Shown here piece after piece: positions 761 to 31,400 of a DNA stretch of 60,000 bases; the stretch's first letter is position 1, and each line of letters opens with the position of its first letter. Below the pieces are notes generated by a model. It made no database searches and was not told where the DNA came from. It saw only the letters and a list, made by a program, of their open reading frames with translations. This stretch comes from Membranipora membranacea. Its lineage: Eukaryota; Bryozoa; Gymnolaemata; Cheilostomatida; Membraniporidae. Location of the stretch: the NCBI GenBank assembly GCA_914767715.1, contig OU612072.1, forward strand, positions 15,626,001 through 15,686,000. The letters run 5' to 3'. A program made the translations under genes and the position numbers.

Positions 761-1404
761 ATGGTGCTGTTCGATTCTTTACTCATATTTATATCTGCAA
801 GTATAAAAATAACTCTTGTAATATGTCTCATCCCCTCTGTGGACAACACACGGACTATCGCACAAGCGGCGGGTTGGAAGGAATCAAGCAATGAACCGAT
901 AGAGGATAAAATATTCGAGGGTGACTCGTATCATCATAAATTTACTTCAAGCTGGAGGCAAGAGTTAAGATCAGATCAAGACGAAATAATATCCAGTGAT
1001 ATGGAGGGTGATCTATCTCGAGCATTGACTAAATCATGGGAACAAAAGTTAGACAAAGTCAGGATGTCATCTCGGACCTTACTCACGACTCAAGAGCTAG
1101 CCTACCATAGCACAGCCACAAAGGATACTATATCTCAATATTCAGAAAGTCAGACTAGCTCAAAGCAGTGCGAGTGCATCTCCAACGTTGAGAAACGGTC
1201 TGTGACTGAGTTTTCGGAGAACAAAGACGTGACAGTTCGCAAACCACCACTGAACATAGCGCTTCTGCTGCCTACTCTTAATATGTCTGCTCTTAATACT
1301 ACCAAGTTTCCAAAATATCAGTTTGCCAAAGCCTATGTCAAACCCGCCGTTGTAATTGCTCTCAAAACTACACCGATCTTCCAGAACTATGAAGTGAATA
1401 TCAT
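761..1404 (+). CDS. Module VA exon 1: signal peptide, charged N-terminal extension, start of ANF-receptor domain
   Basis: ATG at 761 (context aatcATGg) opens a hydrophobic signal-like stretch (about residues 1-26, rich in I, L, V, S). About 135 hydrophilic residues rich in Ser, Thr, Glu, Lys and Gln follow; they have no counterpart in modules VB and VC or in vertebrate receptors. The last 55 residues start the ligand-binding fold with [13 protein letters not shown], which aligns with [11 protein letters not shown] of VC and [11 protein letters not shown] of VB. The exon ends in phase 2 at AT|GTGAGT, a strong donor. The start codon is the first in-frame ATG before a hydrophobic segment; a non-coding first exon further upstream is possible. 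Confidence 0.75.
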
Positions 1405-4400
1405 GTGAGTATTTATTTACATGTATTTATTTGTATCAATATGTGTATATATTCATATGTATTTATATGTATCGATACATATTTATATATTCATACGTAC
1501 CCTAAAATAGTATATTAGCTACAATTTAGTTTAACTGAATTTTGGGGTAATCTCATTAAAACCAGCACAAAATTTTGACTATCTGAGGTCGGACTTCATT
1601 GAGTAGATGTGAGCATAAAAAAGTTAGATTACTTTAGGCCCGCAAAAACTTTTCCGTAAAGGTTTTCAAAGTTGATAATACTTTATGGTAGATTCATATC
1701 ATCACAGAAATCCTTTTGGGATCAGGAGTGTGTTTAACTCTTTGTCATTAATCCTGAATGGTGGCTATGAAACACTTCACAAAACGTAGGTTAGATTGAT
1801 GAAGGCTCTGCTTCCTACTCACGTCTAGCGCCTCTATTCAGTCGGACCTTGACCTATATTTATGGCAGAAACTATAGTATCTATACTATCTCTGCTTTTT
1901 ACATAGCTCAAAGAAATTATTTTGACAGATTGATCTTTCTTGACCATAAGACAACTCTCATCTGTCGTCAGAAAATTAACAAATGCACTGATGTTCTATA
2001 ATAGCTCAGTCGCTTATTGTTGAAGCCCCTAAATACTGACTTGCTTGGTGGAACAGTAAAATAGAAAATATGCAAAGCGCATGGATTGTGCACTATTGCC
2101 TAATAACAACAACCAGCAATGCTAAAAATAGCTAAAGGATTAGTATAACAGCTATATTATCTTTGGTTGTTTCTTTTGGCAAAGCGATAGCAAAGGGATG
2201 TGGCTGGTTTTCACAAACAGTAGATTAGAAATGACAGCTATTAACAGCCCTGATCCAGGGCCATAGTTTAGAAATATGGTAGGGGATATAAATGTCCGAG
2301 GCATGTCCGAAGCATCACCAGCAGAGGCGCTGTAAGCTCCTTCCCAAGCAATTGAGGAATATAATTAGCAAACGGAAATTTAAGAGGAGCTGATTCTGAC
2401 ATGGATTTCCCAATTAAAGTGTTTTTAATGCACTGTATTAAGCTTTTTTAGGGGAGGCAGTGCCTCTCTGACTTTAATACAAGGCCATTAAGGCTATAAG
2501 CACCAAAGTGTCTTAGAGTTGACGCTATCTGTATGTTACATGCGCAGTTCTGATCGTTATTACCCAGCTTGTGCACACCCCTGATTTTATGATTTCGAGT
2601 GGTCACTTCAAATTAAATTTTGAAGATACTTCGGCTACATGAATTACAAAGTACAGAAAAATATCAGCATTCAAAAAATTATTATTTATCGATGATAAAA
2701 AAGTATATATTATGTATGCATAATTCTTCTATTTACTAGAATTGCAGCTTTCTAATGACATATGACACTCCTTTTCTGTTTCAATTCGGTTACCCGGTCA
2801 GAAATAATAAACCATTGTCTGGCGTCTTTTCATATTATCATACAACTACTTAATATTTAAACACTTTAATATTGTATGTTATAATAAAATATAATATTCA
2901 GATGTTTACTAGCTAAATTAAAACAATTTATAGTTGTGTATATCCGAATGAAGAAAAGCAAATAAATAAGAACATACAAATACTTACTTTACAAAAATGA
3001 AAAGACGATCTCATAGACATCATCTGGGCTCATATAAACAACAGTAGTATGCACCATTGGTTAGTGGTAAGACCATATACACATGGGTTCGGATTGGTGC
3101 CCATTATATATTTTTGTTTTGTCTCTATCCCTGTAGGTACGGTGCCTCACTGGCATTCAATACCAGGTTTTAAAAGCGTTTATTTCAAGTTTTACTGGCC
3201 AGATTTCCTTAGCTTAAAGCTAGGTATTGATAGCTAAATTTTCACTGTCCCGTAATGTATTGAAAACCTATTTTCATAAAGCCTGTAACCTCAGTTCTAA
3301 TAGTAGGTACTAAACAGGGTCAACAATTGATATGGGGCTGGGAAAGCTGAAATCCATTTGACTGAATGGGGTTTTTTGCATGGGTGTGTAAAATGTACTC
3401 CCCAACTCACTCAAGTACCAGTTACCATTCACAATGTTGCACCACTTTCACGGGAGTGGGAGGGGTATCCCGCCCTTCCTGATTCAAACAATGAATACAT
3501 GTACACTAATTATTGGTCTACTCTCATTTTGGTAATATTGATTTGATTATTTACCTGCAAGCTGTTTTTTGAGACTTTGGTTAAATAATAGAGAAAAGCT
3601 GAAAAGCAGAAATTCACATTTCAGTAGGACACTATTCTTAATCTTGACATTGCTTTGTTAAATTTAACCATCATCCATGGCCATCACTCTTATTCAATCC
3701 CAAGAGTATTCAAGATTCACAAATAATAGGTTTTTACAGGGTGAGTTGTACAGTACATGTGTAAATTAGAAATTGCCTACTCTGGGTTAAATCTTCCATC
3801 TATTATAGGTATAGATAGCCTGTCTTGACTCCGCCGAACAAAGCTTGCCAAGACAGGCTAAGGTATAGAGCGCTCTAACTCTGCTTGGAATGCACTACCA
3901 GAAACCAGTATAAACTAAGCTAAAATGTTCTACTCAAGGCGGCATTCTATCATAAGCTGGTTGGGTTCTGTTTGATAGTGTGGTATGCAACTACAAGCAA
4001 CGCAAGAATACTGTGCTTAGAAAGAATAGAGTTAGCTCAAAGTTACCCTCAATAAAACAGACTTAATCTAAACTGGTTATGATTAGCTATCACCATACTT
4101 TCAATAAATCAGCCCTCTTTGACAATTGACATTGATACCAAACTCACTTGATTAGCCTATATATATATAGCTTTACCATTTAGCTTTCTTTGCGCATGTT
4201 TTCATATGTCCAAGTTACTTGATCAGTGAATAAAATTGAAATATATACATATTATCATAAATACATAATCTCTCCATTCCTCTCCATGTTTCTTCATTGC
4301 TATATAAGCTGTATTTTACAAGCTCTTGATATTTTTCTGTAGAGATATTGACACACAAGTCCTTGCAGATGTGACTGTAAATCAGATGTTCAACGCTAAG

Positions 4401-7400
4401 ATGACGTTCGGGAATATACATCTCTATCTGGGACCCGTCTCAGACTACTGTATCAGTGTGAGCGCCAAGCAGCTTCGCTACTGGAACGAGCCAATTATAA
4501 CTCCAGGTTAGTTATACATAAAGGATCGTAAATGCTAGCTATGGTTGATTAAAATCTGATGTCATGTCACTCGCCACATCCCATGGAAAGACATGCAGAC
4601 AAGCTGGAAAGACAGCTAAACTCACTACAAGGGGTCCAAGCAATGGGCAAAGGCCAACAACCCTAATACGTACGCTGTGTTTCATAGGGTGGCAATGGTG
4701 GATTGGAATGTGTTGTGGGATGAGAGAACACAACTCCGAGGAGTGAATAGCGGGCGATCTAATTCATTTTTGTCCCAGCCCCCAGCACCCTCGGGTGTAT
4801 ACCTCTCCAGTTTGGGTTAGCTTTGTCACACAGCCACATTTTATGTTTTAGTTTTAGTTAAAACAAAAAAATGGCTGCGTGACAAAGCTGTGCTTGGGGT
4901 GACTTATTGATAGCTAGCACTAAATTCTGAATCGATGAGGGGGGGGGGGGGGTTTATGTATAGTAAAGAGGATGATTAAATGTTAGCTATATCCAGAGGA
5001 GTAGTTTAATTTAGTTTAGCTAGTGACTTAATGATAACTAACGCTTAAAGGTCAAGCCCAATGAAGTTCTAACTTACTGTATGTTTTTCGTGAGGTTCTA
5101 AGCTCTCATTTGAGTCATTGGACAAAACTCTACACCTACCACAGGCAGATCTGTTGATGCTCAAAGCTGATGCTTCATGAAAACAGTCATGGTCCCAACT
5201 CATGACGTCACAAGCTGTGTTTTCTTAAATTACTGTGATACCGGAGATATGATATATGATACCAAATATTAGGGGAGTGATGGTACAGATCCCCTCAAAA
5301 ACTTTGGAATGAGTGAATAAGATATCAGGCTACAATCACCTTCAATTTTATTTGATATCTTTGCTAGGAACAATCAAATAGCATTGGATAATACAACAGT
5401 AAAAACCATTGAGTGGCAAATGTTAAACACTGTCTATGACGTCAGAAGGTCAAGGACATTTAAATGGTTTCTCAATGTGACTGAATTTATTGACTGTTTG
5501 ATGGAGATGTCATCTTTGAGCATCAGCAGATCTGGTTGTGGTAGGTGTAGAATCTTGTCCAATGGCTCATCTGAAAGCTCATCATCTAAAGTAAAACATG
5601 ACAACACTTAGAACTTCATTGGGCTTGGCCGTCATCATATTTATTCAATATTTTCTATTGTTAGGTGGGTTAGCCTCAGATTTTAGCGATTATAGGACGA
5701 AATACTTCCCGACCCTAACACTCATAGGAGCTCAGTCTGGCACGCAGACGCTAGTGACAGCTACCGGAGCGATTTTCGATCAGTTCAAGTTTCGCCGGTA
5801 AGCACTCTATGCAACTTTTGCCTTTTTCTACTGTGCAGAACAATCCGGATAATTAATAAAATTCAACACCGGTCCGTGACACCAAATTCCATGTGATGGT
5901 ACTAAAACTAAATGGATTAATTCACACTCTATCGATCACAGATATACATGCGATAGTATATCACATGATCAGTGTGGGATAACTTCACTATTCTATAGGG
6001 CACTGCCATGAAGTTCTTGGGTTCTCCATAAACTTTGAAGTATATCTCAAACTGTGAATCTCTTTCTTTTTGTTTAATGAAAATATTATGTTAAATGTTA
6101 ATTTAAATTAGAATTCGAATGTGAATTTAAATTTGAATTTGAATTTATATTTTCTTGATTTAATTTAATTAACTGCAGGACTCTTCTGGTGTATGAGGAC
6201 ACATACGAGGGAGAGGAGGTAGACAATCAATGTTTTTTTGTAATCAAGGCTTATTACACGATGCTAAGACGTATAACCAATGTATATGAGTTTGATCACT
6301 GGAAGCTGGACGAAAACTCCAAACACTATATTAACAAACTACTCCACCAGGAGATCGCTAACAAGTTTGCTGGTGAGTTGTATATTTGTTTATTTATTAA
6401 TAGAGGCTGGCTTGAAAGTAAACAAACTATAAATAGTTTAGGGCAACTTGTTGACCTCTATGAATAAAATCTCTTCTAAGTTCAGTTTCATTTTTTCTTT
6501 GTTGATGGGCCCTATCTGAGATTTGTTAGATGGAAACACTCTTAAGAATTGGCGGTTTGTTGGTGTATTACAACTTCAGTTCTACAGAATTGTAGCTAGT
6601 CATCATTAGAACTAAGCAATTGCTATGAGCTAGGGTATGATGAATTGATAGATGTCGATTTCATTAGACTGATCACTGTAATGCAATGAATAGAATAATT
6701 GAATAGTTTTAGAAGTAGACTTATATAAAATGATAGAAAAATGTTGCATAAAAAATAGAGGTTATCGAGGAGGTTTGTCCTATGGGAATCCCAAGAAATT
6801 GCATTATGGGATACCGGTGTTCATTGATCGAATGGAAAAATAACCATCGTGATATTCAACAGCCAATAATAGTATTATACATCAATAATGATAAGTTACA
6901 CATGCTCTACAGTAGTCACAATACAGTGTTCTGTAAAATTCACACCTGTTTGTGATATTAATTTCTTCATCAACGTATGAAACCAAAACTATCGAGAATT
7001 ACGCCATCTTTTGTGCCAATGTTGAGTTATCCTACTGTTGAACGTGAGGAGAAAATTCCCAATATGATCTGCGTTCAAAGAGCAGCAGCCCAAGATGTCT
7101 CGTACTCATTGAGCTGTCTATGTTTAGATACCCTGGAATAACTCTGGGTTAGCTGTCAGCTAGCACTAAATTGTGACTAACTGAGGCGAGAGTCTTTATA
7201 ATGTAAAATGTGGTATATAAATCTTACCTAGCCCTACATTTAGCTATCTCACCCTGTGCAAAATGGCAAACTTTTCCTCTTGTGAAGACTTTACTTCTCT
7301 AGAGTAAGCTATGATATGCACATTACCAAATTATATGTTAATGGGTATGCAGATCTAAACATGATTGTCAACACGTATTGGTAAACATGAGCAGGAAGTC

Positions 7401-10400
7401 ATATAAGGCTACACAAGGCAGATATGTCAGATATCGTACTGGTTTCAAAGATCTGGCCCTATACGGCGTTACCTTCAAAATTAGTTGTGAGAAGCAAGCA
7501 TGGAAAATCACTATGTTTCAATATGTCTATGGTCAACTTCCGTTCGCATTGGTTCGTGTTCCTTCATTCGATTCAATTCGATTTGATTCGTATTGATTCG
7601 TTGATTGACATTAATAACAGCAAAGACTTCAGTGCAAAAGTTCCTGGTTCGGTTGCGGCAGTGCTTTTTTTAAGTTTAATCATCGTGGAAATTGTAAGTA
7701 TACTTGATTTGATTCGGGAGCTGACAACTCATTCGAAGCATGGGACCATAGTGAATAAGTGCTTAAAATCTGCCCGGGGCGCCGATAGTGACATTTTATT
7801 CTTGGTAACGGGATGCCTGGGCAATATTTGAGCATGATTCTGATTCCGTAGTTGGATAAATTTTTGATCCTGGCTTCAATCTATTTGGCTCTGCCAATGA
7901 GAGGAGCTTGTATGAGCGTTGACACAAACTCCAAGAGATCACTTATACCTGTTTACAACATGAAATCAATGTTTGCATTATTGCACAAAACAAATTAGTT
8001 TGTCTCCAAGTCTACAAATTCGCCCCATTTAAGTGTCATTATAGCACTATAATTATGCTGAGCGCATACAAAACTAACAAAACAAACAATACCCTTGGAT
8101 TATGTAATGTCGTGTTTGCAAAAAGTATTTGTATGCCATTTTAGAATTAACGCTTGTCAGCTCAAATATTTTATAAAAAAAACACTAGTAGTTTTGTTGT
8201 TGGGACTTTTTTAGCTAGCAGGCAATTGTACTAAGATTATCAGATATGAAAACATGGTAATATTCAGATCAGGATCTAAGTTTGATGAATCAAATTGTGA
8301 TGCATCGTGACAGTAGAGCTTGTAAAAGTTTTAATGGTTACATGAATGGATTTGGATCTTCAACTTGCTTGGATGGAGTGGATCGGCTTAAAAATAATAT
8401 TCAGTTCAGTGATTGCCAGCTGATGAAGTGTTTTATGATGTTTCAAGCTAATTTAACAATTAACCAGAAAAGCGAATTTGACGTGTGCTAAGCTGTACTA
8501 ACATAAATATACACAGGGTCTGTATAATGTATCAAAATGCCACATCTTTTATACACAGTCCAGTCCAGTATCCTGCTCAGGCTGTTGGGGGTTGGGTGTC
8601 CCCCCATCCACCCACGACAGCCTGCCCAGGATACCAGTCCAGCTCAACCTATACTCAAAAATATGCTGCTGTAAAGCTAGGGCAGCAAAGTGATGAAATA
8701 GCAACGTAAAACATATGTTTTTACCTAGCACTAGCGGCCTAACAGATGTTTCTAACCATTATCAAAAATTAACCAGGCCGGCTTTTAAAACAATATGGCT
8801 CCATGAATTTCGGCCGGATGCTGATCATTCCAAATAAGGTGAGGCACCGACACAGTTTGCTGGAGTATATACCCTGATACAGTTTTTATTGGAAGTACTT
8901 CCGGGCGGGAGCTTGTGGCATGCCATTGGAATGCCACTAATAGTGAACATTGTCAGTGCATGCTAATGGAATGCCTCTAGCAGTGACCCGGGCAAAGTCA
9001 AAGCATATAAACTAGATACTATCTCAAGTACAATGCTGTGGAATTCCGAGTCTCGGTACTCATAGCAAACTCCCACAAGGGACCTCAGTAAAGGCTTCCG
9101 CCTCAATTTGTTGCCTAAGTGCTCCGACATTGAACATCAGTGAAGGATGCATCTCGTTATTGCAAATGGATTTTCAATGAAACATGGGGGGGGGGGTGTA
9201 GGGCACTCCCTCATTTTGTTCTCTTAAATGTCAGTCTAAAGCAATCCTAAGATGTTTTTATCTTCAATCTACCGATACTACAGTCACTTCATCAGATTTC
9301 ATCTTTGAAGCAAATGATTTTATACCAACAATTATCAATAATTATGAGCAGTATTAGGAGTTAGATATTATAGCTGTAATAGTTATGACATCTAAATGAG
9401 CATACTTCTAACATAGTTTGTTTTGAGCAGCCATTAACCTAGCCTCATTTCCTGTGTTTCAACCCTGGGCAAAGCAATATGTATTTACTAGAGCTGCGCC
9501 AGTGAGTGCCATTACCTAAAGCGCTAGGTACGCTTGTACTGTACAAAGTAGAATTTAAAGTGTTGGCATTCGCCATTCACCTTGTGTGGTCTGCACTAGA
9601 TATGTACCAATGATTGATTGATGCACTGGATGAGTTTAACTGATGTGTTATATTCCCATGAATGGTGCAGCTCTAGCTTAATGCCTTGTAATCCAGAGGT
9701 GTACTAGGGCTGTACCTGTAGCTAAAATGACAATAACTACACCGTGTAATATTCGCAACATCTGCGCAGCCCTATTCTTATTCTACCTATCTAAACTAAT
9801 GCATCGTAGGAAACTTGAGGCACTCTGCAAGTTGATGAAGTGCTCTGCAAAGGGCCTCTCAAGTTAAATTAGAATTCCTTGATAGCATTGTATCTTATTT
9901 ATTTAAGCCTAATGCGTAAACATTTCTCAAATCCTTCCAACGCATTGGAAAGCAACATTTAAGTGTAAACCAACGATGTTCTTACTATGTCGTTGTCTGC
10001 TCTTCACATTATAAGAGAGTCAGCCAGTAGTTTTAATGTATTATTAGTTGAATTGGTGCTGCCGCTGACTTAGGTGATGCTGCCGACAATAAACTCAATC
10101 TGTGCTGCCACTTTAAACAGCAGCAGTCTGTTTTAAGCTGCAGTGCTCTCATTTGTATTATTGGTGTTGAACTAATAACACCAAGATTTAGATCTTAACA
10201 CCTTCAGGGCAGTTGAGCTTGAGAAGCTGAGTTGTGAAGTCAAGCGTATGGGTTGCTCCTCCGTTCAAGGTTCTTGATTTCATCCTTCATCTGTCTTTGG
10301 TTTAAACTGGAGTCCTAGACTATCACCCTACTTCAGTCAGTGAAAGAATTTGTCAACTGCAGATAAGTATCTCGTTGCACCGATAAACCTCACAAGATTT

Positions 10401-13400
10401 ATCAATCGAGACAAGGAAATTTAGAGTGATGTAGACAGTGGACTTATAGTTTGACATTGAACCATTATCGTAGCCACGTATGTAATAAAGATGTCAAACT
10501 GATTATACTCGATCTCTTTCCTACTTTTTGTATGATGCTGACATTATCTTAGCCTGGTGAAACAAAGCAATAAAATGCTAAGGACAACCTCTTGAAGGAC
10601 TAAGAAAACCTGACAACAATGGATAATAGTTACTTCGGTCGAAAATAATGACCAAATGAGTTAATCAACCTCCAAAATTTTCACATATTCATTCATCGAT
10701 AAAATCAGAAACTATAGCCAGTCTAACACGTGTCACTCATCCCATATGCTGGTGGTATGAGAGTATAGGATATATAGTAAGTGGATTGAATTTAAACAAA
10801 ACTGTGCCGGCACGTGTACCGGAATAGCACTGAGGATTAATCTACAATCGGATCAATGAGAGCGGGTGGTTAACAACTCACTGAAAACTGAAATAGGATT
10901 ATGAGTCGCTAATGTTATCAACAGCAAATTGGATCTGCTCTTCAAAGTCGAAGAGGCAAAGAGAGACCACTGGCTTGTGCCCTTTGTGTACATTTCTCTC
11001 TGGCGAGTTTGTTGACTTCCTGCGCCTTTCACAGAATCAAATATCACATCCGCGGGATTAGCTGAGAGGTTTCTAATTCTATCAAAACATTTATGCAAGC
11101 GACAGTTGACTGCATTGTTGTCAAATCACACTTGGAAAGGTTTCAATTTCAATTTTCGAGGATTAGCGATTGTTGCATAACGGATAACTTTCTGACTTCA
11201 CATAGAAAAAGCTGCCACAAGTCTGATTTACCTTTGGTGTGTTAGGAACAAAGGTACATTTTTATGTAAAACTCAAGAGGTACAACTTTCACACTCACAG
11301 GACAAATTAACTCAGGACAAAATGTATACTATTAAACCGCTGGTAAGTCTGTCACTACTGGGCCTCGTGTTTGTGACAACAGTTTACTCAATGACAACTG
11401 TCAGGGTTGCCGTTATACTTCCAGAGGATGAAAAGTACTTATTCTCTATTAAGAACTGTGTTCCTGCCATAAGGCAGGGTATCGAGAAGGCGTACTCTCT
11501 AGGTATCCTCGACAGAAACAAAACTAAGTTTGACATAGTGTCTAAAGACTCGGGCTGCGACGGTATGAACGCCCCTCTGGCTGCTTTCGATTTTGTCACT
11601 AACAAGATGGTGGATATATTCTTTGGACCTTGCTGTGACTACAGTCTTGCACCCGTGGTGCGCTACTCCAAATCATGGAATATTCCTGTTATAACTCCTG
11701 GGGGCTTTGCCAGAGACTTTGCAGAAAAAACACACGGTCGTGCAGAGTACACAATGTTGACTCGGGTCGGAACAAACCTTGGTTCGCTAAGCGATGGTGC
11801 TATCAAAATGCTACAAACCAACAAATGGTCCAAGATAATGATGATTTACGACAAAGATGGGCAAAACTCGGTGACGCTTGATTTCTGTCACCTCGCCATC
11901 TCAGCCCTCATCCGCGGGATGAACAAAGCTCAAATCACTAATGAGTTTTTCCGGATGGAACAAGACAAACTGAACGGTACGGAGTCTAAGTTCTCTGCCA
12001 GCGGCATGTTAAAAGACAGAGTCGGCATTGACTTCGGAGGTTCGTAGAAAACTAGACTTTGTTATCCTTTCACCACCATTTCCTGATAGGGTGGCGGGTT
12101 TTTGCCTGATTCCTAGTTCCAACAAACTCACTCAAGCATTTGTATCACTTTGGTCTAGATCTAGCCAGCGGAGGTCTGCAAAATAGACTGCTGTCGTTAA
12201 TTTCCTTTTCTAAGCTAAGCTAAAGTCCAAGTCCTCTTTTAGAGAGAATGTCAGTTAAAAGGGCAGGCATGGTTCACCATTGATCAGGTCAGTAATGGGC
12301 CTCCGTTCTTTTGTTACAAACTAATGTGTTAGATAGCTGTAGCTCTGAGTTGTGGAAAGAAGGCGATTACGTATCGTAAACCACAATCATTTATTGCTTC
12401 CCAAGTTTGGATGTGTGAATGTGTGAGGCTCCCAAACCAAGTCACCAGATCTCAATTTTGCAGCAAAATAGAGTAAATATTATCTCCAAATGAGTTTAGC
12501 TAGTTTGGGGTTACTTAAGGTTAGCTAGCCCCAATTTTTGGCTAGAGGAAGTGGGAGTTAATACAAAGTAAAGTGGGTGAGGAAATGTTAGCTAGCATGG
12601 CATAGACATAATAATATTAAGTCTATTAAGTCTATTATTAAGTCTATTATTAAGTCTATGGCTAGCAGTGATTTTTACTTTTCTAGCCTGGCAAAATTGC
12701 GAAATTCTCCTCCTGCAAATGCTTCTAGTTCTAGTTTGTATATTTTGCTATCATTCATGTTCTTGGCAGGTAGCTGAATTCAACAGGCCATTGTCCAGTA
12801 TATAAGGTTGGGTCACATGACTCAACCCCCTACTTTATTGTACTAACAGCGGCGTTAACATCAGACTAAGGTTCTTGTTGGGACTTTTTCATATGTTGCA
12901 TATAATATAAATGTAGTCTGAACTCAACGGAACAACATTTTGATTTTAATCTCTGTAAATATCAGCGCCGCTAACTACATCATAAATCAGCACAATTTAC
13001 ACAAGAGTACAACATTAAATTTCTCTCGTTAGAAAATAAATCAAACCATTTAGTTTGATATCTTATTTAGTAGCTTAGTCTAGTCGGGTAGTTTGTAGCC
13101 AAGTATTCTCTGCTCGCAGTCCAGGTGTTTAATATTGATAAGAGGTCAAGTTTACCTGCAGCGATAGTCCGCTTGGTTTGTTGATGTTGATGCACAGCCA
13201 GCCGTTAACAATGATTGGGAAGGCGATCGCGGCCGTATGTGGGGCACCCCCTTAACGACCGCCTACGTCTGCGATCGCCATCCCAAAAACTGTTACAGGC
13301 TGGCTGTGTGTTGATGTTGGTGAAAAAGATTTCCGTTCATTTTGCAAATTGTGGAGTTTGAATATAATTTTGCCGATTGAAAATTTCAGGGATATAGTCT

Positions 13401-16400
13401 TAATATCTTAATGCTTAGCAGACTCTGTGTGTAAATTTATAAATTTATTAGCAGCGGATAAAGGATGATCGAACCGATCTGAATAATATATATGTTTACA
13501 TTATAGTTTGTGTATATACAAGTTATGCAACTGCCTTTCCCGCTTGCTAACGCATTCTGTACTGTGGAAATTAAAATCGTTAAGATGGTTTGAGACTTGG
13601 TCGGTTTTAGCCTATCCCACAGTGCAATTTTGAGTAATTCCCGGGGGGGGGGGGGGGATCAGATGTGTGAATAAAACTTAGCATCATCTGCTCAGAAATT
13701 TGAAATTCAACTGGCTTTATGGATGAATCGTGAAAATACCTACTGTATATTTCAGTAAGATTTGCCTTGGTGCTAAGGTTCAATTTTTTCATTTCATTTC
13801 AAAATGTTTTAACAGCACGTATAGGTTCTGCTGATATTGTAGTAATAATTTAAAAGTGGAGCAAAGTGATTGAAGGCCCTGTTCTTAATTGTTAGAATGT
13901 AATATCTATTCAGCAAAACTGACATTAGTAAATATTCAATAAATAACTTTTATGAATGAATGAAACTCTCGGAAATGAATAAGTCACTTTCATCATTTTA
14001 TGCTATTTCGCTTCACTACTGAGTTATTGAATTGATCGCTTCTGTCTCTCTCGCCTGACGGAAGAGCTTGAAGTGCCGATGTTCAGTCAATCATACAAAG
14101 TGCTATAATAGGACAAGTGCTATCTCGACATTGAATTCCATATCTAGAATAGTATCAGTAGCTTTCTTTTGCCAAACAATGGGTTTGCAAAAAAGCCAGT
14201 CTCTAGAAAAGTAGCTTTCTAGAAAAGCCCAAATCATCAACAAGGAAGGCATTTTATTACTGTTTGCAGTTTTCTAAACAAGACAGATAGTAGGGACAGC
14301 CAATCAGATCAATGTCAGATGAGTCCCTGTGTTGACTGTTCTAACTGTATAATGTTATGATACTATTTCTGTTCCATGAGAAGAATTCTTTCAGTGTATT
14401 ACGAGCATCATAAAACAAATACATGTAGTGCAGAAGTTGAGTTTTTCACCCCTACAGATCTCTAATTAACTAATCCACAATGTTCTACATGTCTGTCTGC
14501 TTTCTCGAATCGATATCAACAATTTCCGCGAGTAAAGAAACACATCCAAACATACAGACTGTCATTTGCAATGTTGGCGTGTTATCACCCATGTCATTGA
14601 ACTACTAATAACTGGTCGAGATATACAGTTAATTCACTTTTTTCTCACTCCTTTGATTATCTTGAATCAACTTGTAAACGAAATTATAAGTCTCTGCTAA
14701 GCTCCCTGTCGGGCATCAAAGTAAATCTTAATCCATAGATTTTAATGCGATATATAGTTAGGAATAGTCGTAACACCTTATAATGTAAAAGAAGGCTTGT
14801 TATAAACATGGGAGTTTATTCATATACATGTGTTAATTAACACATATTATCAATAGTGCAATGCACGTGAGGCGGTCAGCGCCCTTGTGAGAAGATTACC
14901 GTATACTATATTGAGATCATTGTAATAATCTATATAACATCTATATAACATGGACTACAATGATAATCAGACAAATTTGTCTGCACGGGTTATGACTTGG
15001 AATACCAGAATATTGCTAGCACAAATACCTCATGATTAACAGTAATATGCTGTAATACATTATGATACAATCACCTCACTTAGTAACTGCGTCATTTAAC
15101 AAAGTTTTTGTTCAATTATTTTACAGGATTTGACGAAATTGTGTGAGATAGTAATAGCAAAATTAAGAAAAATCCATTAGATTTATGATAAAATTTTGTA
15201 AACCTTTAAACCAAAACTACTTTGAAATTGATATTGTTTATCTTTGACTGTTTTGGATGTGTCTGCCTTTAGATACCCAAAACTCTGGTATATCTAAATA
15301 ACAATATTTTCCCAAGCAAGTAGGTAATTTGTCATCTGATGATACATTCGACATCAAAACCACAGTCTTTCAAATGTTCCGGCCATTCGCAAGAAGTAAC
15401 ACATATCACTGAAAATAAAGCCGTCAATTTTTCCACTGGGCTGGTTATTTGAGTGAATGCAATTATCGAGAGTTGTGTTCTGGGGTTGAGGACATTATAA
15501 GATGGCAAGTCAAGCTAGCAGAAAAGATCAATGCTGTCCTTTTAATTATGGCGTCCACGACTTAGCCTTCTACTTCGCACTTCAGGTTGAGTCCTTACGC
15601 CGTCTCGCAGCCATCGGTTAGTGCCCTCGCTCTTCACTGTCTGGCGATTGGTACCATCAGTACAGGGCGGTAGATTAGAAAAAATTGTAGGGGAGGCGAA
15701 AATCCTTGAGGGTGTGAAATAACACTAGGTTGGGTTGTTAGCTCCTCCCGAGTTGATATAAATAGCAAATTGAAGTCCCGAACGCGCTGATTCTGACATG
15801 GAATATTCAATTTTAGCGATTTTAGGCCACTCTATTCAGCATTCTAGGGGAGGTAGAGCGTCCCTGCCATCTAGAATTAGGCCTGTACTTCCTGTAGAAG
15901 TACTGTGTTCAGGTCCAATCGGAAGAGGTACCTCTTTCATATTGCAAGTGCCATTTGTGGTATTGTTGACATTGTGTACCGTTGGTTAAAATTATAAGGA
16001 CTGAGAAATTAAAATGCCTAAAGGCCAAAGCAGTCATATTCAGCACCATGTTGCGCTTAGTTGGCAGCAGAGTAAACCTGGGCCCCAATGCAGCCTATTG
16101 CCAGTAGACTGCAGCATGATATGAAACTTGCACCTGCTATACTAGCATGTTAGAGGGTTCGCAAACAAACAGACTAGCTCCTACTCCTTTGTCAAAAGTC
16201 ATAGATAAGCTGGCCACTAATCTTTAGTCAGATATTTTCTGAGTTGGTTGTAATCTCTGTAGCATATCATTGGTGTGTCACATCAAATTGGTAAGGGGAC
16301 ATTTTGGTTACTTCGGAATTGTGTTTACCTTATGTAAGGGAGACAACATACCTTTACCAGCTTCTCTACTTTGTTGCATCACATTGGTTCCTAATTCCTA

Positions 16401-19400
16401 CTTCAATTGGTGATATAGTTGGAGAACAATTTTGAAGGAAGGAACAAAGAGTTGTAACGTGCTCAATGCAGTGTTCCTTGCATACATCAGTCTAGCTTCT
16501 TTGACCTCTCTCATTGCCTTGAGTTTAATCCGATTACCTGTAATCTAAGTGACTTCTGTTTTACCGACGTAAGCAAGGAGGAGGCAACTCAAAAATTGAT
16601 CTAACTTGTAGAGTTAGATCTAGAGATCCCCTTGGTTTAGTTTACTGGTCATTCAGGCGAGTCATCCCTGATAGTTTAGAAAGTTTACAACAAGTCATAC
16701 ACTTAGATAATTTTTGGATTTCTGGCTCACACTAGTTGTTTAAGAGTCAGATCAATTCGCCTAAGAAGGTTAATCTAGTAGTTGGTCAGTGTAAAGCCTG
16801 CAGGTACCTTTCCTTGAATAAACATCTAAATGTCAGCACAACACCTTGAGTATGAAAGTCTGTATTCTCAATCTCTAAACATGTTTATACAGCAGTATTG
16901 TGAGGCTCTATGTTGCTACATATGCTTTGGGGTAATGTATTGTAAACAATATTGAGGTCAATAAGAATCAAGCTGATTCTTTTGTTTTCCCACTTAACGG
17001 CATAAGCTGCCTCTGCAGCTTAGCGATCGCTCTTGGCTATTGCGGCTTGGCTATCGTATGTTCACTGGCCCTTTATTTTTTTATTCAAACGTCTTGATAT
17101 TCCAGCCCTTTGAAACCCTCAGGTAGCTCGTTGCACCTGGAAATTTCTCAACAGAAGGCCACACAGCTTGACAGCTAGAGTTTTTATTAAAAATAAAATT
17201 GATTTTTGTTCCACATTTCAAACAAAATGAAGAGTTGCCTTCTCAACAGCACAGAAGCAGACAACTTCATAAAGCAGAGTAACATCGGATGGCTATTAGG
17301 TACTCACAATTATATAGCATTACAGTACTGTGTTGATTTCAGGATGAGACCGCTGAAAGCTAAAACTCAAAAGCGTGCCAACAGATTTTCTATTTTTTAT
17401 TCAATTATTTAAACCAGAGCACTATAGTTGTCAGAACCCAAATATTAGCGTTTTTATCACAAATGATTCAGGAATGTTGAAATAAACATAACATAACACT
17501 AAAAATTTGTTGCTGAACATTTGCCACAGAATGCTGTTTCGCATGCCAGCAGGGAGGGTGGGAGGGTGGCACCCTCCCTGATGCCAGGTATCAAGGTATC
17601 TATATTTCTATAGTGCACAACTAATATTAAACATGAAACTTAGCCCTTATTAACTGACAGACTGATAAATCAATAGCAAGGTAGATATTAATTTTTTTAT
17701 TTCCATCATCACTGTGTTTGTTTTGTCGTAAGGAGAAGCCGACATCTTAAATTATACAGCGAGCTTACCTGCTGACAAGGTTCAATTAACCCTGCATGAT
17801 ACATTTTTTCAGTCTTGCCGTTCACTCTTTTTCCGACTTAGCGTATAATAAAGATGAGAGGCTGCGTAAATTTTAATCAATTTTATGAAGATCTCAAGTT
17901 GCAATAACATCAGGTGATGTGGTGCTGTGTATTTTCAATGACCTGTAATCGAGCCAGGTCCTGTCATTCCCAATATTGAAGCAAACTTCGCAGTTGGGGT
18001 GTGTCGGTCAATATATCTGTTGTTTCTAAGGGATGTGTGCAGCGAATACAATTAATTTTCATCTAAACATAGAAAATCATGTTTTGATTGTGTTTGGTTT
18101 AATTTATTTACTTTCCACATGGTTTATGTCACTACAGGCATTGATTTTCTCTCTAGTCTTGTAATATGATATTTACTGTATCATTATTTCATGGAAGCAC
18201 CGTGTATAACATAAACATCGATTCTAATTAATATTCTAGTGGCTTTCGGTTTAAATTTGTGATCATAAGGAGTTATTCTGTCATTCCTGATTGGTCGATG
18301 GACCTGGCCACCAGCCAATCAGGTTTTGCCTTGAGGCTATTATTTACAATGATTGGTCAAACAGTGCCTGAAACAGAAAAAAACTCTCCACTCTGGTAAA
18401 CATAATTACGCAGAGAGGGAAAAGAGGATAAACCTATAGCATGGTCATTCTGCAAACCTCTGAAAAATATTTACATAGAACAAAAACAGATATTGTTATT
18501 GTTTTATGCTGCTCTCAGTGAAAGTTATTCACTCTATCGCTTATTTCCTGTTCGCCCACTCGCCATAAAAAGTTTCTTGATGGCGTCGGCGAGTGGAGTA
18601 ATCGCAGTGTGTTGTCTTGCGCAGCTTATGCTATCTGCAACAGCTGTCAATTTAACGATAGGATTGATACTGCCAGAGGACAACACCTATGAATTTTCCA
18701 TTCCTAAAGTTCTACCGGCCATCGAGTATGGCTTGGATAAAGTAAAAGGTTCATTAAGTAACAGAAACATCACCATCAATGTGATCACCAGAGACTCGCA
18801 GCACAGTGACATATTAGGACCGCTCGCCGCAATCGACGTCTACAAGTCGGTTGATATCTTCTTCGGACCCGTCTACAACTTTGCGGTTGCCCCAATTGCA
18901 AGGTACGCCCCCTACTGGGATGTGCCGATAATCACCGCAGGTGCTCCGGATGTACAATTCAAGCACAAAGCCACGGAATACAAGCAGCTTACTAGAATCG
19001 GAGCCATTTACGAGACCGCTACTAAGCTCTTAAAGGCACTCAATGAGGAATACGGATGGCAGAGGTTCGGTCTGCTCTATCATAGTTTTACTGACACTTC
19101 TAAACCGAAGAGCAAATGTTACCAGCTGGTATGGGCGTTCCTCGAGTTTCTGACTGAAGAGTACCCAGAGGCAAACAAAGATATATGGAAGTCAAAGTTT
19201 GATGAGACAACTCCTAAAGAGAATAACTTCACAGAGACCTTACTAGAGGCTCATCTAAATGTCCGACGTAAGTGTTACTGTAACAGACCTGTGCTATGTC
19301 AAGGTCAGTGGTGAAAGTTAAGCTCTGATGATTTTTTTGGGAGAGATAATTGCAATTTCACTGATTTGAGGGTGAGTGCGATGTGGCTTAGCCGTTGTTG

Positions 19401-22400
19401 GTATTCCTTTCCTGGTCAGCTGGGGTGGATGGCCCACAACAGCCAAATCTGGTAGTTCACTTAGTGATCCTGGTAAGGTTTGATCCCAGGGCATTGCGGT
19501 CCACCGCTACAACCGTTGAGCTACCCCTGATTCAGAGTAAGAAGAAAGCCATTGTGATACACCTTGACAACTGCAAGATCTATTGTGCTAACTAAAACGA
19601 TTCAAGAATTGCCTCAGCCATTAGTCTGAGCCCCCCAGACTCTTGCTCTCGTCCGACAATCCCCCCCCCCCCCCCATCCATCGATGTCGACCCTGGCGTG
19701 GTGTACAAATCTTAACATGTGTTTGTTAGTCGCAATATTCGGAGGTAGCTATGCGCAGATTCAGTAGTGGCGCCCCCTCACCCATCCAGTTTGTGCTATT
19801 TCTCATTGACACAGAGAAGTTTCTCAACATGATATAATCTTTTCTCATATTTTGAATCTGGTTGGCCTGTGCTGAACACAGTATGCAATTTCCTGTTTGC
19901 TTTCAGTCTTTAGGTTCTGATTTACTGCATCTATTGATTGATATGTAATCAGGCATTCTGGGAATCTTTACAAAGTTCTACCAGTGATAAGAGAAGCGGT
20001 GCAGTTCTCTGCGGACCCTACACTGGTTTTGGCCATTCATCTTTGGAAATGAAATATGAAAAATTGGTTGATTTGCCTGCATATAAAATATCCCTTGGAA
20101 TCAAGTAGTTGCCCAGGCATTGATATGGAATTCATGACTTGTTCAATTAGTTTTACAGAGACCTGTGGCAATTCATCTTTGGAAATGGAATAGGATAAAT
20201 TTGTTGATTGGGCTGCATAGAAAGAAAAACTTTGGATGATACCTTAATTTGACTTGTTGGAATTGGAATCAAGCAGTTATCTAAGCATATTGAATAGACA
20301 CTGGATCTGTGATTCATGACTCGTTCGATTAGTCTCCAAGCAATAACGCTATCAACTGGTCGTATTCACTGACCATAGAGGTCATGTTTGGTTGTTATTA
20401 TATAAGAAGTGGGTATTGACCTCCAGTACACCACAGTTTGTGTTCCCAAACCTGTCATCAATCCGTCATGTGCACTGAATTAATACAGCATCACCCGATC
20501 CTGTCATTTAGTGATCCTTAATAAGGCTCAAAATAGCATTAATACCCATATTATTTTGTTGGGGGTCACTGCCTCCACCGCAACCTAGGCTATTTTGGGA
20601 GAAAAAACTTAGGCTTGAATCAAGGCATTATCTTATAAAGCAAAAAATTAAATCAAGACTATAGATAGATGAGCATGCTACTATATCTTGTGTGGGGGGG
20701 GGGGGGTAGTGGTTTGAGACCATACTCTCCTGAGCACCTGACACCTATAGTCCTCACAGACCGCTGGATAATTTAGATTATTACAGATAGAATACATCCT
20801 TGGTCTTAGAAGGATGACGTATTTTTCTCCATATTCATCTCTCAGACATACAACGTTTAATTGACACCAGAGCACATGTACTTGTTAGTTCTGCACTCTT
20901 CGTCTGAAAAGTACAACACCAGATGAACGAGGGGACATGTCCCATCGTAAACTAAGTTCACATGATTCGATTATCAGCACTCTGTGATATATTTAGCCTG
21001 TCTTGACAAGCTTTGTTCGGTGCGAGGGAATGGGTTCTCCCCCACCCCAACCTAACCAAGCAAAGCTTGTCAAGACAGGCTACAGTATACTAGATTTGTC
21101 GATCAGTGAGGAAGTGTTTTCTCAAACACTGGCACGTGCTTCTGAGCTCTTTAAATTTGATGCAGATTAAATTTCAAACTTAACGATTAACGAGTGAATC
21201 GGTCTGACAAAGTAGTGGCATGCTCTCTTGTAGTGATGACTTTACTGCTGATGCCAACTGTTTTACTCTCTCAAGTGGCAGTGTCAATTTACCAGAAAAG
21301 TGCGAGGGTCGGTCAAGTCGGTGGCATTGAAATGAGATGTGAAGTGGATGGGATATTTTATCTGCTCGAGGTAATGCGTCTTTTACTGTTGATGTTATCT
21401 ATGCATTTCCCTGCAATACGTATTGGCGAGATTCGCTGGATTTTACATTACATTACTTTCTGCCTCCCACGGCGGGATTGCATTTGTTAGGTATACCAAT
21501 ATCAGTTGTGGCCCCTGACTATTTAAAATATGAAAGTCAGTTATATATAGCAGGGAACTATCAGTCTTTCCAACAATTTTCCTTTGGAAGTTCTACCTTC
21601 CAACTACCTACCAGCTACATTCCAGCTATCTTTCAGCTATTAGTCTGGTGGCAGCCTACGCAAAGTGTCCCGAAAAATTCAACGTTCACCGAACTAGATC
21701 TTCCAGCTATTTTCCAGCTTGGACCTTGTGCTGGGTATAACTTGTTTGGTAGGTCTTCATCCTTTGCAGCAATACATTTAAAAAAAATACAATTTCAGCA
21801 ATGAACCATTCAATCTCTGCATTTGTCAGTAATATAGCCAGGTACTACATCAGTTGGTTAGACAACAGATTGAAAACATTCATTATATTTTAGATGAAAC
21901 TAAAGGAGCATATTTTTAAACAGCGGAAATAAGTTTTCGTTATTGATCAGCAGTAGATATGACAAAACCAATACATTTATTCAAGTTTATTTATATAACT
22001 CGACTGTGATCAACTAATCTTCAACCTTGCTGCCTTTGCATTGCGTTCTATGTATGGTGGCTGCCCTGTATATATAATCTTGGATTGTGCCACAAGTTCA
22101 GAGTTGTAATATAGCTGACCCTTGTTAACTTATTGTCAAGCAGCTTGCCTGAGTTTTTGAAGGTCGTTTCTGGGATGTCAATCAATGCATAACGAAAAAG
22201 CTGCCAGATTTTTAGCTTTATTTAGATACTGACACAAAGTTTTACACTGATGGCATATAGCCACAAATAGCCACACTATGTACTTTACCACTGATCCATA
22301 AACTCATCAATGATTGCAGTTGTAGTATCATAAGATAAGACGCTATAGTCTAAAGTCTATGGGTAACAGAAAAGAAAAGAAAAAAAATTACTGCCGATGA

Positions 22401-25400
22401 TTTTGAGTAATTTGATTAGATGCTGTCTCTATGGGGATATTAAAATGTAGCTGATTTCATTAATAAGGACGCTCTAATCTTACTTTGATGGCTATAATTT
22501 GATTGCTGACATAACCAATGTAAAAAAATAGAGGGAGTTGCTTTAGTTTTATTGCGCTCTCGGTCTTGATTGATTTGTGAATCGGCAACCTTTTAGCGGT
22601 ATGGAGTTTTAAAAACTTAAGATGTCTTAGGGTGATTTCTAAAGACAAAGAGCTATCGGCACCAATGCTCCCTATCCTCCCCCCTCCTTCCCGATTTTAG
22701 TTACATATTGCCCTGAGCTACGCAATGAGTAATGTTAGCTAGAATTAATCGTAAGTTAGTTTTGTGGTGACTTTAAGTTAGCTAGCACCAATTTTTATTT
22801 GGCTATGGAAGGGATTAATATGATGTGATGGGGTTGATTAATGTAAGCTAGCCATTAGTTTTGCTATATTACAGACATGAGTGAAGCTGCGGAGTTTTCC
22901 TCCCCAAAGACTGTCAGAAGATTTTTTAGTATTTGAATTTTTTACATCTTAGTAATGCCGTATATCTCTGAATGACTACAGCCTCATATATCTCTCTAAT
23001 ATTATTGTTTTATATTGGCTTATCCTCACACATGATAGCACAAGCATCCAACAGATAAAGCCTACTCAAAAGTTTTTTCAGCCCCAATAAAATGATACCA
23101 ATTAATTGAGCGGATATCAGACATGGGTCATGAGCGAACATCATCAAGATGTAAATATATTGTATCTCCCTAACCATGAATATGAAATAATCTCTCTTAT
23201 TGCTCCATGCTCCATGCAGCATTTTTTATTCGCTCTCTCAGAAAAAAACAGTTTAGCAGCTCAACTTGGTGAATTTGCTTTCGAGTTTATCGTAACATCT
23301 TTTTAACTATAGCCTAGTTTCCAAAAAAATAACTCTGTTATAATCGAATTGCAATATGTAAGAGCCTCAAATAACACCAGATGTTATCTTAAAACTGAGG
23401 ATCTGAGTGGACTTACGAAAGCACCTGGATATGATGTAACTGCTGCACATTATTTTAGAAACCTTCAGAGCTTTTTTTTCACCTGTGGTTTTCCAACAGT
23501 CAGATTTACATAAACTGAACTTTTCAAATCCATAAATATTGGTTCAAGCTTGCTAAATATAGACTCAACCTTGCAAAAGTCTGCAATGATCTCTTATTTT
23601 TTTTGCAGTGATAATAATGTGTGCCAGTCCGACGTCAGTACGAGATATCATGTTGGAAGCTCATAAGCTAAAGTTTACTAACGGAGAATACATCTTCTTC
23701 AACATTGATTTGTTTGGAAGGTAAGATTTTCTGTGTTTGGCTTGAGTTCTCGAGTTTACTTGGTCTAAAAGGTTGTTAGGCTGCCCTCCTCGCCATATCA
23801 ACCAAATAAATGTGGTACCGAGGCTCCCCCCCCGTCAGTTTCGTGATTGAAATGTTTAATACCAATATATGGGGTGGGTCTCCACCATACCCTGAATGAT
23901 GAATGTGAACTCAGGCTTTGCTGTAGAAGCTTCAATAACATTCATGAGGAAATAACGCACAATTATATGGCAGCAATGCGTGAGCTCCTACTCTGTCCAA
24001 TCTATTCAGAAAAAAAAACTAATCAAAACAAGATCCTTGGCCAACACAATCTTTTCATAATAATACTGTCATCATGTATAATAATGTCGCCTTGACTCAA
24101 GTCTTTCAGTTAGCAGTGAGCTCTTTCATATTCATTAAAGTAGAGGTCAGTGACCACTCAGCTATGGCATTACTTTGTATGATTCGCACATATGATGAAT
24201 AGATCAAATGTAAACTTAGAGGCCCTTGTCTGCAGAGAAGCCTGTCATTTTGTGGGCATCGACTGCAAAGCCAATGAGTCGATTTGCCTCTGATCATTGA
24301 CAGGTACAGGGCCGTAGTTAAGAATAAATAATAGGGGGTGGCAAAAGTCTGAGGCAAGACAAAGCATCCCCAGGATGGGTGCTGTCAGTTCCTCCCTAAG
24401 CAATTTGAGGCATCTAATTAGCAAATGCAAATCCCAGAGGAGCTGATTCTGACATGGATTATTCAATGAGAGTGTTTTTGGGCCACTCTATTTAGCTTAA
24501 AAGGGGAGGCAGTGCCTCCTTGCCTCCCCTAGAACTACCTCTAACCATTGACATGTATAATTACTAACATGAGCCTAGTGTTTACAGAGTTGTTTGTCGT
24601 ACTCCTACTCTCACACTTGCCTGACAATGCTCTAGTCTGAGTGCACATTGATGGTACTAGAAAATCCTGAGCGGAACCTTAAATTTTACAGGGAAAACAA
24701 AATAAGAGGGTCATATCAGGCTGTTATGTGATTCAGCTGTTTGATGCCAGGTGGATGACCACCAGCGAGTCTTGATATACCTGGATTTTTCACGCCATAT
24801 TCAGACTTTCATCTCATTATTTACCTTTCTGCAGTTACTGCAGCCCTTTGTTTGGGTTATGATCAATTTATCTATAAGTCGCAATCAAGACAAGCAGACT
24901 GGGACTATGGCAGAAAATGCAACATTTGATGTTATCAAACTTGCAATGTCCATCTTACCACGACCTGTCTCTGTTTTTATGCAATCAACTGTATCATGAA
25001 TTAGATCAACTATAGCTCAATAACCCCTCAGGGCTAGCAGAAGGAAACTGAAGTCAGTTTCCCCCACATGATAGTATTGTCTTTCGATGTAGATTGGGAA
25101 ATAACCATATAAGCCTGATACCCTTACTTATCTCTTTGCTTGGAGTTATTTTTTGGAATGTCTATCTACATGTGACTAAATCTTTTTTGTAGTCTAAGAG
25201 TATGATGTCAGGGTCAAAGATATATTGTGCAAACATTAACCAAGTTTGGTTCATTTTCCTGCGTTTGGAGTTGCTCCCCTCCACTGATCACGATGCAGGC
25301 AATGACCTGCAGCATGACCAGTTAAAGGAGAGCAACTAAAATGCAGGCAAACTTGATCCAGGCAAACTCCAACAGAAACCATTCATTCACACATCTAATT

Positions 25401-28400: not shown

Positions 28401-31400
28401 GCACAAGTTGAAAAAATGGTGATCTGTTTTATTCTGAACTTCTGTGTCAAGCCCTAGTTTCTTTTACAGGAAGGTGAGAGAAATTCACTGGCCGGGTGGT
28501 AGAACAGAGCCCCCTCCTGATAAGCCTGTATGTGGTTACGATAACTCAGGCTGTCCAGAAAAAGGACCTCCTCAGCCTTGGATCATCTCTACCGCAGTTT
28601 TCTCTGCAGTCCTCGTAGTGCTGGTTGTAGGAGGTTTCTTTGTGTACAGGTGAGATCATATTCCCATTCAGGTCCTGGAAATCACAGAAAACCGCTAAAA
28701 CCAAAAAGCCTGTTGAAGCAGACTCATGTGTTTTCCAGGACGATTTTTCCTCTACAGCACAAAAAAAATGATGAAAGCTGTACATGGAGGTGGATCCCTT
28801 GGTTAGCAAATGAGTGGGCTCTGATTGGTTGCTTGTGTGGACCAATCAACTAATTTGCTGTTCGTGCAAGTTTATTGTTATGGTTATCATTAGTTGTGCC
28901 ATGACATTGTTGACAGTGAATAACCATCTGTCTAGAAATACGACTCAGATGTACAGTACAATCCCTAATACATGCGCAAACCCTAACAGGACATATGCTG
29001 AATAATGTCGTAACTTTTTAATATTGTTATTGTTTTTCATTATTATTATTATTACTTTTATTATCATTTTTCATCATTATACTTACTTTTGCTAGACGGT
29101 ACAAGTATGAGAATGAGCTCAATAAGATGACATGGAGGATCAGGTCGCAGGATATAATATTCGCTGGAAGGCGTGGCGGCGGCTCCATCGCAAATAAAGC
29201 CCCAGGTGAGAAACAAAATACATTACACCCAAAATCTCATCATTATAGAGAGTACATTAGTGATGTGATGATATGAGTTTGGGTGATATGAAGGTTTTGG
29301 AGGGCAGGAGGATTACTAGAGGTGTGAGTGTGTAATGATACTGTGGGTGGGGTGTTTTTAGCATCGAACCCTTAAAATTATGAGTTCACTCAAATTGTTT
29401 GCTTGATGTCGTTGGTGATGTCATTCAGATCAATACAACTGTAGGGGTGGTATCTTCATAATTTGTCTCTATTTTCTAAAATTGGCCAATAGCACTATTA
29501 TTTTATCCAGAAACCCATTGTTTACATTACACAAAAAAAATACAAGATACCACCCCTATTTGTTGTAGCGCCATCTGAATCAGCCATCATGGACACTCTG
29601 GTGGAGGAAGAAGAGGGAGAAGTGGAGGTGCTGTGTGGACCAGATTTCAAGGAGGAAGCATAACTCCAATTAACATGAAAATTAATCCCATAAAACTAAT
29701 ATTATTATATGGCTACATTTTACCATAACAGATTGGGTCGCAACATAGTTTAGATGTTAGGAATTGATTATTTATAAAACAAGGGACTTTACCGACGAAA
29801 TGTCAATGATTTTGATGTGGCATAGACATTGATAATACTCTTAGACATTCACACATTTTAGACACAAGTGGACTAAACTTTAGTTCATTTTTTCAGGCTT
29901 AACCTTTAACTTTAAACTTAAATATTTTTGTAAAATCTTACAGCTTTGTTTTGATGCCATCAGCATTACCAAAAATATGTTCCATTATATTCAAGAAGTA
30001 TTACCCCTGACTTAGAAGCTAGCACACCAAACTACACTATTTTTCATTTTAACACTTACGCAAACTGCTTCAAGCCATATTAGATTTTGCACTTATTCCC
30101 TCGCTGAAACCATGTTCTATTTTATTCTAAATAATGTTGTGAAATTAAAAAAACCTGTCTGTTATCTACATACTAGATACCAACCAATGGGGAAACGGAT
30201 ACGAGTTAAAGGCTGATAAACGCAGCAGTAATTTATTGTCTGTGTGGAGTAGCTTTTCTCAGGAAGGCGGTGAGATGTGGTCCCGTCCCCTCCCAACTCC
30301 TGCAAGGCTTAATCCTTCTCCTCATAGTCATATATAGCCTAGCCTTGGGATCCTACTGTACAATCGCATCAAGTTAGATAAACTTTGTCTGCTTTTTGGA
30401 ATTGCTCTCTCTTCACTGGTCAACCACTGACATTAATCTCGAGGAGCAGATGAAAAATGATCAAACTTGATCCATTATCTTGTTAAACGAATCTGCTTGC
30501 GCTTATTAGTTTCTTTTTAGGCGGGTCTTGCTTATAAACAGTCTATCTTGATGTTGAAAGTCCAACTAGAGCATTGTGAGAATGCTTACCTCTATATTTT
30601 TGTATTAAATCAAATACGTAACATGTTATATATATAATATATACTATATCACTGACTGACTCAATCTACTATCTCAAGATACAAATCTGCTTGCGCTTAT
30701 TAGTTTCAAGAGAACAGTCCCTTTATGCAGGTTTGGCTTTTAAACAGGCTATTGTGCTGTTGAAGATCTATCTTCTTAGATTAGCCTGCATTGTAGTAAA
30801 TATTTATGTAGTAAATTTATATATGTATATGTAGTTTATTTATATATATTAATATACATATTATACTTTTTACTGACATATATGTTTCTTATGGGGCAGC
30901 TGGATGCCTAGAGAGACCCTCATACCCAGGCTCTATATATGAACCGCTCATAAAGCTGTCTTTTGCGGCAGCTAAAATGAGCAGTGGTTCTCGCCGCAGC
31001 AGGATGTCACAGATGGGTGGTATGCAACGCCATCGTAACAGTGCCACTGGTAATAAGCTCGATCTAAGGCTAATATTAACCGGCTCTATCTGTTTGTCTC
31101 AGGGTTGAAATTATCAATGTTCTTGACCTTTTTGATCTTCATCAACCATGATTTCTTCTTTGTACAGATTGGGTATGGGTTCTAATGCTTCTGTAATGAT
31201 CTTCTCTCTTTGCTGGAAAATGCTTATCGGTTTATCAATACCTTTTGCCACCAAAACTAAATTGACACAAGATGCTCATAGACAACTGATAACTGGCCGG
31301 GGAGATTAAGTTGGATAGGTTTTGTTATTCTCTCAAGCTTTGTTGAAAAACAGAACTGACATAAAGTTGTGAAGCTTCTGTTGCGCGAGTAATTGAATTA

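Follow-up and report, generated by a model that had tools for sequence, protein, structure and literature searches.

The vertebrate natriuretic peptide receptors (NPRs) NPR-A, NPR-B and NPR-C are encoded by separate genes. Here we describe a gene for an NPR-type receptor guanylate cyclase from the bryozoan Membranipora membranacea, in which three 5' modules (VA, VB and VC) are located upstream of a single receptor body of 19 exons on the + strand. The gene lies in a stretch of 60,000 nucleotides (hereafter the window) of contig OU612072.1 (C8), positions 15626001-15686000, from an assembly of 339 Mb in 18 contigs. The coordinates below are those of the window unless a chromosomal position is given. 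The gene product resembles the vertebrate receptors in its domain order, its fold family and some of the conserved cysteines, and the alignment of its body to NPR-A begins at residue 209. Three isoforms of NPR-A are described, in the passage cited, as small internal splice changes and not as alternative binding halves (PMC10665444). The related Drosophila receptor Gyc76C has been proposed as the receptor for the hormone ITP, in a source whose cited part sorts receptor cyclases into six clades (PMC12611267).

A precedent for alternative starts on an NPR-type receptor is provided by the isoforms of gcy-28 in Caenorhabditis elegans. In the sections cited, this gene is called the ortholog of the atrial natriuretic peptide receptor, the cloning of its gcy-28.c and gcy-28.d cDNAs used a separate start primer for each and a common end primer, and the isoform promoters are 3.2 and 2.9 kb in length, with wide expression for gcy-28.c and restricted expression for gcy-28.d (PMC9249223). 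A passage in another paper refers to gcy-28.d as an AIA-specific splicing isoform (PMC3842693). An earlier note on the bryozoan DNA had stated that no natriuretic-type receptor was described with such a layout, which is too strong a claim, since according to these passages the gcy-28 isoforms have their own starts, their own promoters and a shared end. These isoforms reportedly also differ in their extracellular domain (Tsunozaki 2008, Shinkai 2011). The likeness between the two genes is that different starts lead to a shared end. The bryozoan gene differs in that the swapped part corresponds precisely to the N-terminal half of the binding domain and is present three times, once as a multi-exon module and twice as a single exon.

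Comparable layouts are known from unrelated proteins. At the UGT1 locus, alternative first exons code for the substrate-binding half and common exons code for the rest, but UGT1 is an enzyme whereas the gene described here codes for a receptor. Clustered protocadherins and sDscam, which are adhesion molecules and not hormone receptors, likewise attach variable tandem 5' cassettes to a constant part, but the bryozoan gene has only three modules and these are very different from one another. For chelicerate sDscam, the passage cited describes tandem variable 5' cassettes and a constant part, with alternating promoters and splicing (PMC4835542). Literature searches on alternative first exons and on differing extracellular domains of receptor cyclases returned no description of a three-half-module layout for an NPR, and none was recognised among the matches listed in broader searches. 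The anatomy appears to be new in that one body is preceded by a tandem array of three N-terminal binding-domain halves, which have exact boundaries and are very different from one another.

Anatomy of the modules and the shared body

VA is composed of four exons (761..1404, 4343..4506, 5665..5797 and 6179..6372), and VB (11322..12039) and VC (18580..19267) are single exons. Each module begins with an ATG, has a hydrophobic, signal-like segment within the first 40 residues, and closes with a GT donor in phase 1. VB and VC continue into the N-terminal half of an ANF_receptor domain. In VA, the first exon carries the ATG, the hydrophobic N-terminal segment, a domain-free stretch and the receptor domain from residue 161, and it exits in phase 2. 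The 160 residues that precede the receptor part, signal-like segment included, hold no other domain detectable with Pfam. The second and third exons have AG/GT sites and joining frames, the second matching NPR-C within VA, and the fourth provides the phase 1 end.

The shared continuation, K1 (23609..23720), enters in phase 1 behind an acceptor that scores 13.2. From K1 at 23609 to the stop at 43299, the body comprises 19 exons with AG/GT borders and fitting phases. Joining VA, VB or VC to K1 and the exons that follow yields predicted proteins of 1391, 1252 and 1242 amino acids, respectively, with no internal stops. A tblastn search with all pieces against both strands of the window recovered each of the three N-terminal modules and a single copy of the body exons, and revealed neither another body nor an extra module in the gaps. 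The coordinates, start codons, phases and order given in the earlier note were all recovered, as was its claim that K1 is the single matching continuation with no duplicated downstream half between the modules. Homologous 5' modules therefore stand in tandem and in equal phase ahead of one constant exon set, which is the arrangement of an alternative-first-exon gene. From this arrangement we consider it likely that three alternative 5' ends are joined to one body, however the starts arise.

Domain searches place the modules and the body in the same receptor family. Pfam ANF_receptor matches VB with 60.8 bits (profile 5-130) and VC with 55.2 bits (profile 2-129), and in the body it matches with 109 bits (profile 180-352), alongside PK_Tyr_Ser-Thr (135 bits) and Guanylate_cyc (237 bits). 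Together with a single hydrophobic membrane segment in K5, read by eye, the kinase-homology and guanylate cyclase domains make up an NPR-type architecture. Among solved structures, each module is closest to NPR-C, and the extracellular portion of the body is closest to NPR-A (expect value, E, of 1.5e-43). The NPR-C matches have E values of 5.7e-19 for VB, 1.2e-22 for VC and 1.4e-5 for VA, and VA also matches VC with an E value of 6e-13. Structure models of VB and VC were of low confidence (mean predicted local distance difference test scores of 50.2 and 38.5) and were not used. Rfam gave 0 matches on the window.

When the alignments are extended to the end of each module, VA reaches residue 209 and VB residue 215 of NPR-A chain 8tg9, on which K1 starts at 209, and VC reaches residue 219 of NPR-C chain 1jdn, on which K1 starts at 214. 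Thus, all three modules give way to K1 at the same place in the fold, with a tolerance of about 6 residues. Disulphides of NPR-A are given, in the passage cited, as 60-86, 164-213 and 423-432 (PMC4049422). The equivalent of Cys213 stands at position five of the stretch encoded by K1. The column taken as equivalent to Cys164 holds a cysteine in VA (where exon 4 encodes it), VB, VC and NPR-C, and is one of the 19 invariant columns of this four-row alignment. In VC it is the sole cysteine outside the signal-like segment. Each module therefore appears to bring one half of a bond that K1 completes. This pattern shows the fit of the modules to K1 and not their expression. Reading by eye, which gives positions and not bonds, places both of the 60-86 cysteines in VB and neither in VA or VC, and finds the two cysteines of the 423-432 motif in the body.

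The exchanged half would include residues relevant to hormone binding. In the part of a docking study cited here, NPR-A contacts including Asp62, Tyr88, Arg95, Tyr154, Phe165, Glu169 and Glu187 precede residue 209, and some of the listed NPR-B and NPR-C contacts fall after that residue (PMC9699598). In our alignment, for which the numbering offset was deduced, Tyr92 of NPR-C corresponds to Tyr in VA and VB and to Phe in VC, and Arg99 corresponds to Arg in VB and VC and to Lys in VA. The modules are therefore likely to differ in their contact surface.

These features suggest a model for how the gene is used. Each module would probably have its own transcription start and would supply a signal peptide and ~210 residues from the start of the hormone-binding domain. 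Each phase 1 donor would then be spliced to the shared acceptor at 23608/23609, and any downstream modules would be skipped. The resulting receptors would be identical from the second half of the binding domain onwards, through the membrane span and the kinase-homology domain to the cyclase, such that the swap changes the ligand and leaves the signalling part unchanged. Different hormones or cell types might in this way feed the same cyclic GMP output. We infer the separate promoters, the splicing of each module to K1 and the different ligands from the gene structure, and on this basis the one gene probably produces three receptors that sense different signals.

Whole-genome searches are consistent with a single body served by these modules. 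A query of K1-K6 against the 339-Mb genome, with 9 candidates scored, recovered the six exons at this locus and weak matches at two places on C4 (E values of 9.8e-4 and 1.15e-3). One of the C4 places, near 34.53 Mb, belongs to a different receptor cyclase that has a body of its own, and for the K1 part this locus is the only match in the genome at E<=0.01. VB matches only itself and VC, and VC only itself and VB (both candidates scored in each case), and VA exon 4 matches only itself at E<=0.1 (the one candidate scored). This search scores only the best candidates, few of which pass the first look, and thus distant relatives may be missed. The same queries (VB, VC, VA exon 4 and K1-K6) gave no support for a VA or VB with its own body elsewhere. 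Of the 43 ANF_receptor matches listed for the genome, two lie on C8 and correspond to VB and VC, and VA is absent from the listing. The 40 kb that precede the window contain no N, and no further module was detected in them (best E value of 0.62). The module array thus looks bounded, with nothing more in those 40 kb or in the gaps. The proposal in the earlier note that the ligand-binding half is swapped onto a common body is well supported by the module anatomy and by a body with no other strong match in the genome, even though its statement on novelty is too strong.

Coding character of the modules and competing explanations

The modules are very different from one another and yet open, as the earlier note had observed. 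Their pairwise identities by BLASTP are 23, 26 and 28%. Between VB and VC, identity at codon positions 1, 2 and 3 is 44.5, 55.5 and 28.6%, compared with 27, 27 and 25% in shuffles. The corresponding values are 40.9, 53.0 and 24.2% for VB and VA, and 43.0, 47.7 and 32.6% for VC and VA. The third positions of the first two pairs are at or near the shuffled level, and that of the VC/VA pair is 2.6 standard deviations above it. The splits are therefore old, and a signal at the protein level nonetheless persists. We also simulated decay by neutral substitutions and short indels, with one indel per ten substitutions. At 5% substitution, intact copies were retained in 0 of 500 runs for VA, 1.4% for VB and 1.0% for VC, although a very recent death would escape this analysis. 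The G+C content at third codon positions is 0.466, 0.519 and 0.520 in the modules, which resembles the 0.470 of the body and exceeds the overall G+C content of the window (0.382). Together, the codon patterns and the decay simulation argue that VA, VB and VC are unlikely to be dead fragments.

Several observations weigh against three working 5' ends. With Pfam ANF_receptor, VA reaches 24.5 bits (profile 26-135), which is just under the cut-off of 25.4. The donor of VB (GAG|GTTCGT) is the weakest, with a score of 4.77, and the first internal donor of VA scores 5.48. Both are below all 18 body donors (5.52-12.14), although they exceed 93% and 95%, respectively, of the GTs in the window. The final donors of VA and VC score 7.53 and 8.90. 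Two of the three internal acceptors of VA score only 1.9 and 0.7, compared with 5.8-13.2 in the body, as judged with a small, home-made matrix built from the body's own sites. A strong acceptor-like site (score 11.2) ends at 677, upstream of the VA ATG, and therefore VA may have an earlier 5' exon and the start given for it is provisional. Finally, when compared with the window as a whole, the ratio of observed to expected CpG upstream of the VA, VB and VC ATGs ranks at the 79th, 58th and 64th percentiles, which is not distinctive. Promoters are thus not visible by CpG content. As a separate observation, the next GT after the VB donor, 4 nucleotides on, was considered as an alternative donor and rejected because it gives phase 2, which is incompatible with K1.

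The weak VB donor and the divergence of VA, which falls under the Pfam cut-off, would suit an explanation in which VC, the module closest to K1, is the sole working first exon and VA and/or VB are silent or dying leftovers of tandem duplication. We regard this as rather unlikely, given that VA and VB have kept intact frames with GT donors at only 23-28% identity to the other modules, and that codon positions 1 and 2 are conserved with the third at or little above the shuffled level. Moreover, 5% neutral substitution leaves at most 1.4% of VB copies and none of the 500 VA copies intact, and only a very recent death would evade this argument. The acceptor-like site at 677, which may indicate an exon upstream of VA, and the CpG values without a promoter signal would instead favor one long transcript that starts upstream of VA, with the module chosen by alternative splicing. 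This explanation differs from three separate transcription starts in its promoters only, and so the two overlap. It too seems unlikely, because VB and VC both open with an ATG that leads into a signal-like segment, and because the acceptor-like sites nearby (7.6 for VB, 7.0 and 6.6 for VC) score under the body median of 10.7.

Two further explanations carry much less weight. VA and VB might yield truncated, secreted half-domain decoys through intron readthrough and early polyadenylation, and an AATAAA at 6463, ~90 nucleotides past the VA donor, could serve such a product. However, hexamers of this type are common in the AT-rich sequence here, a half domain would be unlikely to fold because its Cys164-equivalent would be unpaired, and the phase 1 donors would be left without explanation, which together make decoys highly improbable. 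The earlier note had named an assembly error, by which fragments of separate genes were set side by side, as something that would overturn its proposal. Such an artefact is made less likely by the assembly itself (339 Mb in 18 contigs), and also by the 40 kb upstream that are free of N, by the lack of another strong body match in the genome and by the collinear order and strand of the pieces. We give it hardly any credence. Three alternative 5' ends on one body thus remain our preferred interpretation.

Body exons and neighboring features

The remainder of the ligand-binding domain is encoded by K2-K4 (25797-25992, 26744-26867 and 27283-27412), as indicated by Pfam and by the NPR-A match. K5 (28470..28649) carries the juxtamembrane cysteine motif and the transmembrane segment, both read by eye from the translation. 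By Pfam and phases, the cytoplasmic linker and kinase-homology domain extend over K6-K13, which comprise K6-K9 (29096-29205, 30900-31049, 31943-32085 and 32411-32520) and K10-K13 (33042-33186, 33977-34151, 36451-36612 and 37174-37339). On the same grounds, the cyclase linker, guanylate cyclase domain and tail are assigned to K14-K16 (38723-38903, 39632-39799 and 40822-40955) and K17-K19 (41850-41989, 42352-42443 and 42877-43299), the last of which includes the stop. All are on the + strand.

Two places in the body might provide additional variants. The exon at 30900-31049 has 150 nucleotides, is phase 1 at both ends and encodes a Ser/Arg-rich stretch between the membrane span and the kinase-homology domain, and its skipping could occur without a frameshift. 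A second candidate, at 29569-29663, is a possible alternative last exon with an acceptor-like site (94th percentile of AGs) in phase with K6, followed by 31 codons and a stop. It has no Pfam match, and the nearest AATAAA or ATTAAA that follows is at 30144. If real, this exon would produce a short-tailed receptor without a cyclase, a layout like that of NPR-C.

The window also contains dispersed repeats. One has three copies (2359-2471, 15756-15868 and 24412-24524), two of which are 61% and 78% identical to the copy used as reference, and similar sequence can be seen by eye near 46320-46500 and 48350-48580. Another has two copies (14129-14386 and 40075-40351) that are 91% and 85% identical in two blocks. 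Downstream of the receptor gene, exon-like open stretches on the + strand at 54111-54374 and 58939-59178 resemble a small Ras-like GTPase (Pfam Ras, 24.7 and 31.9 bits). Upstream of the window on C8, about 20 kb to the left, the + strand carries an open frame of 422 codons (window-relative -20845 to -19580) that seems to belong to a different gene. Elsewhere in the genome, three ANF_receptor matches (profile 76-129 or 76-137) are located ~30 kb apart on the - strand of C2 (C2:28487497-28547110), and these are possibly tandem genes or another array. Sequence surrounding two of these matches gave no hit to any module or body piece below an E value of 0.2.

Implications for receptor guanylate cyclases

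NPRs act as dimers in which the hormone is held between two protomers. With an exchangeable hormone-contact half, cells that use two or three of the starts could build mixed dimers, and as many as six binding sites might then be coupled to one cyclase. We offer this idea tentatively, and consider it more doubtful than the presence of the three 5' ends. If it is true, then together with gcy-28 it would suggest that the use of alternative starts is ancient among the family's invertebrate members.

For many receptor guanylate cyclases of invertebrates, no ligand is known. If the three receptors from this gene differ only in the half that contacts the hormone, then ligands must be sought separately for each isoform, and gene counts would understate the number of hormone systems. 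The three modules would also constitute a natural domain-swap series, which might reveal which half of an NPR sets its specificity and how the shared half relays the signal.

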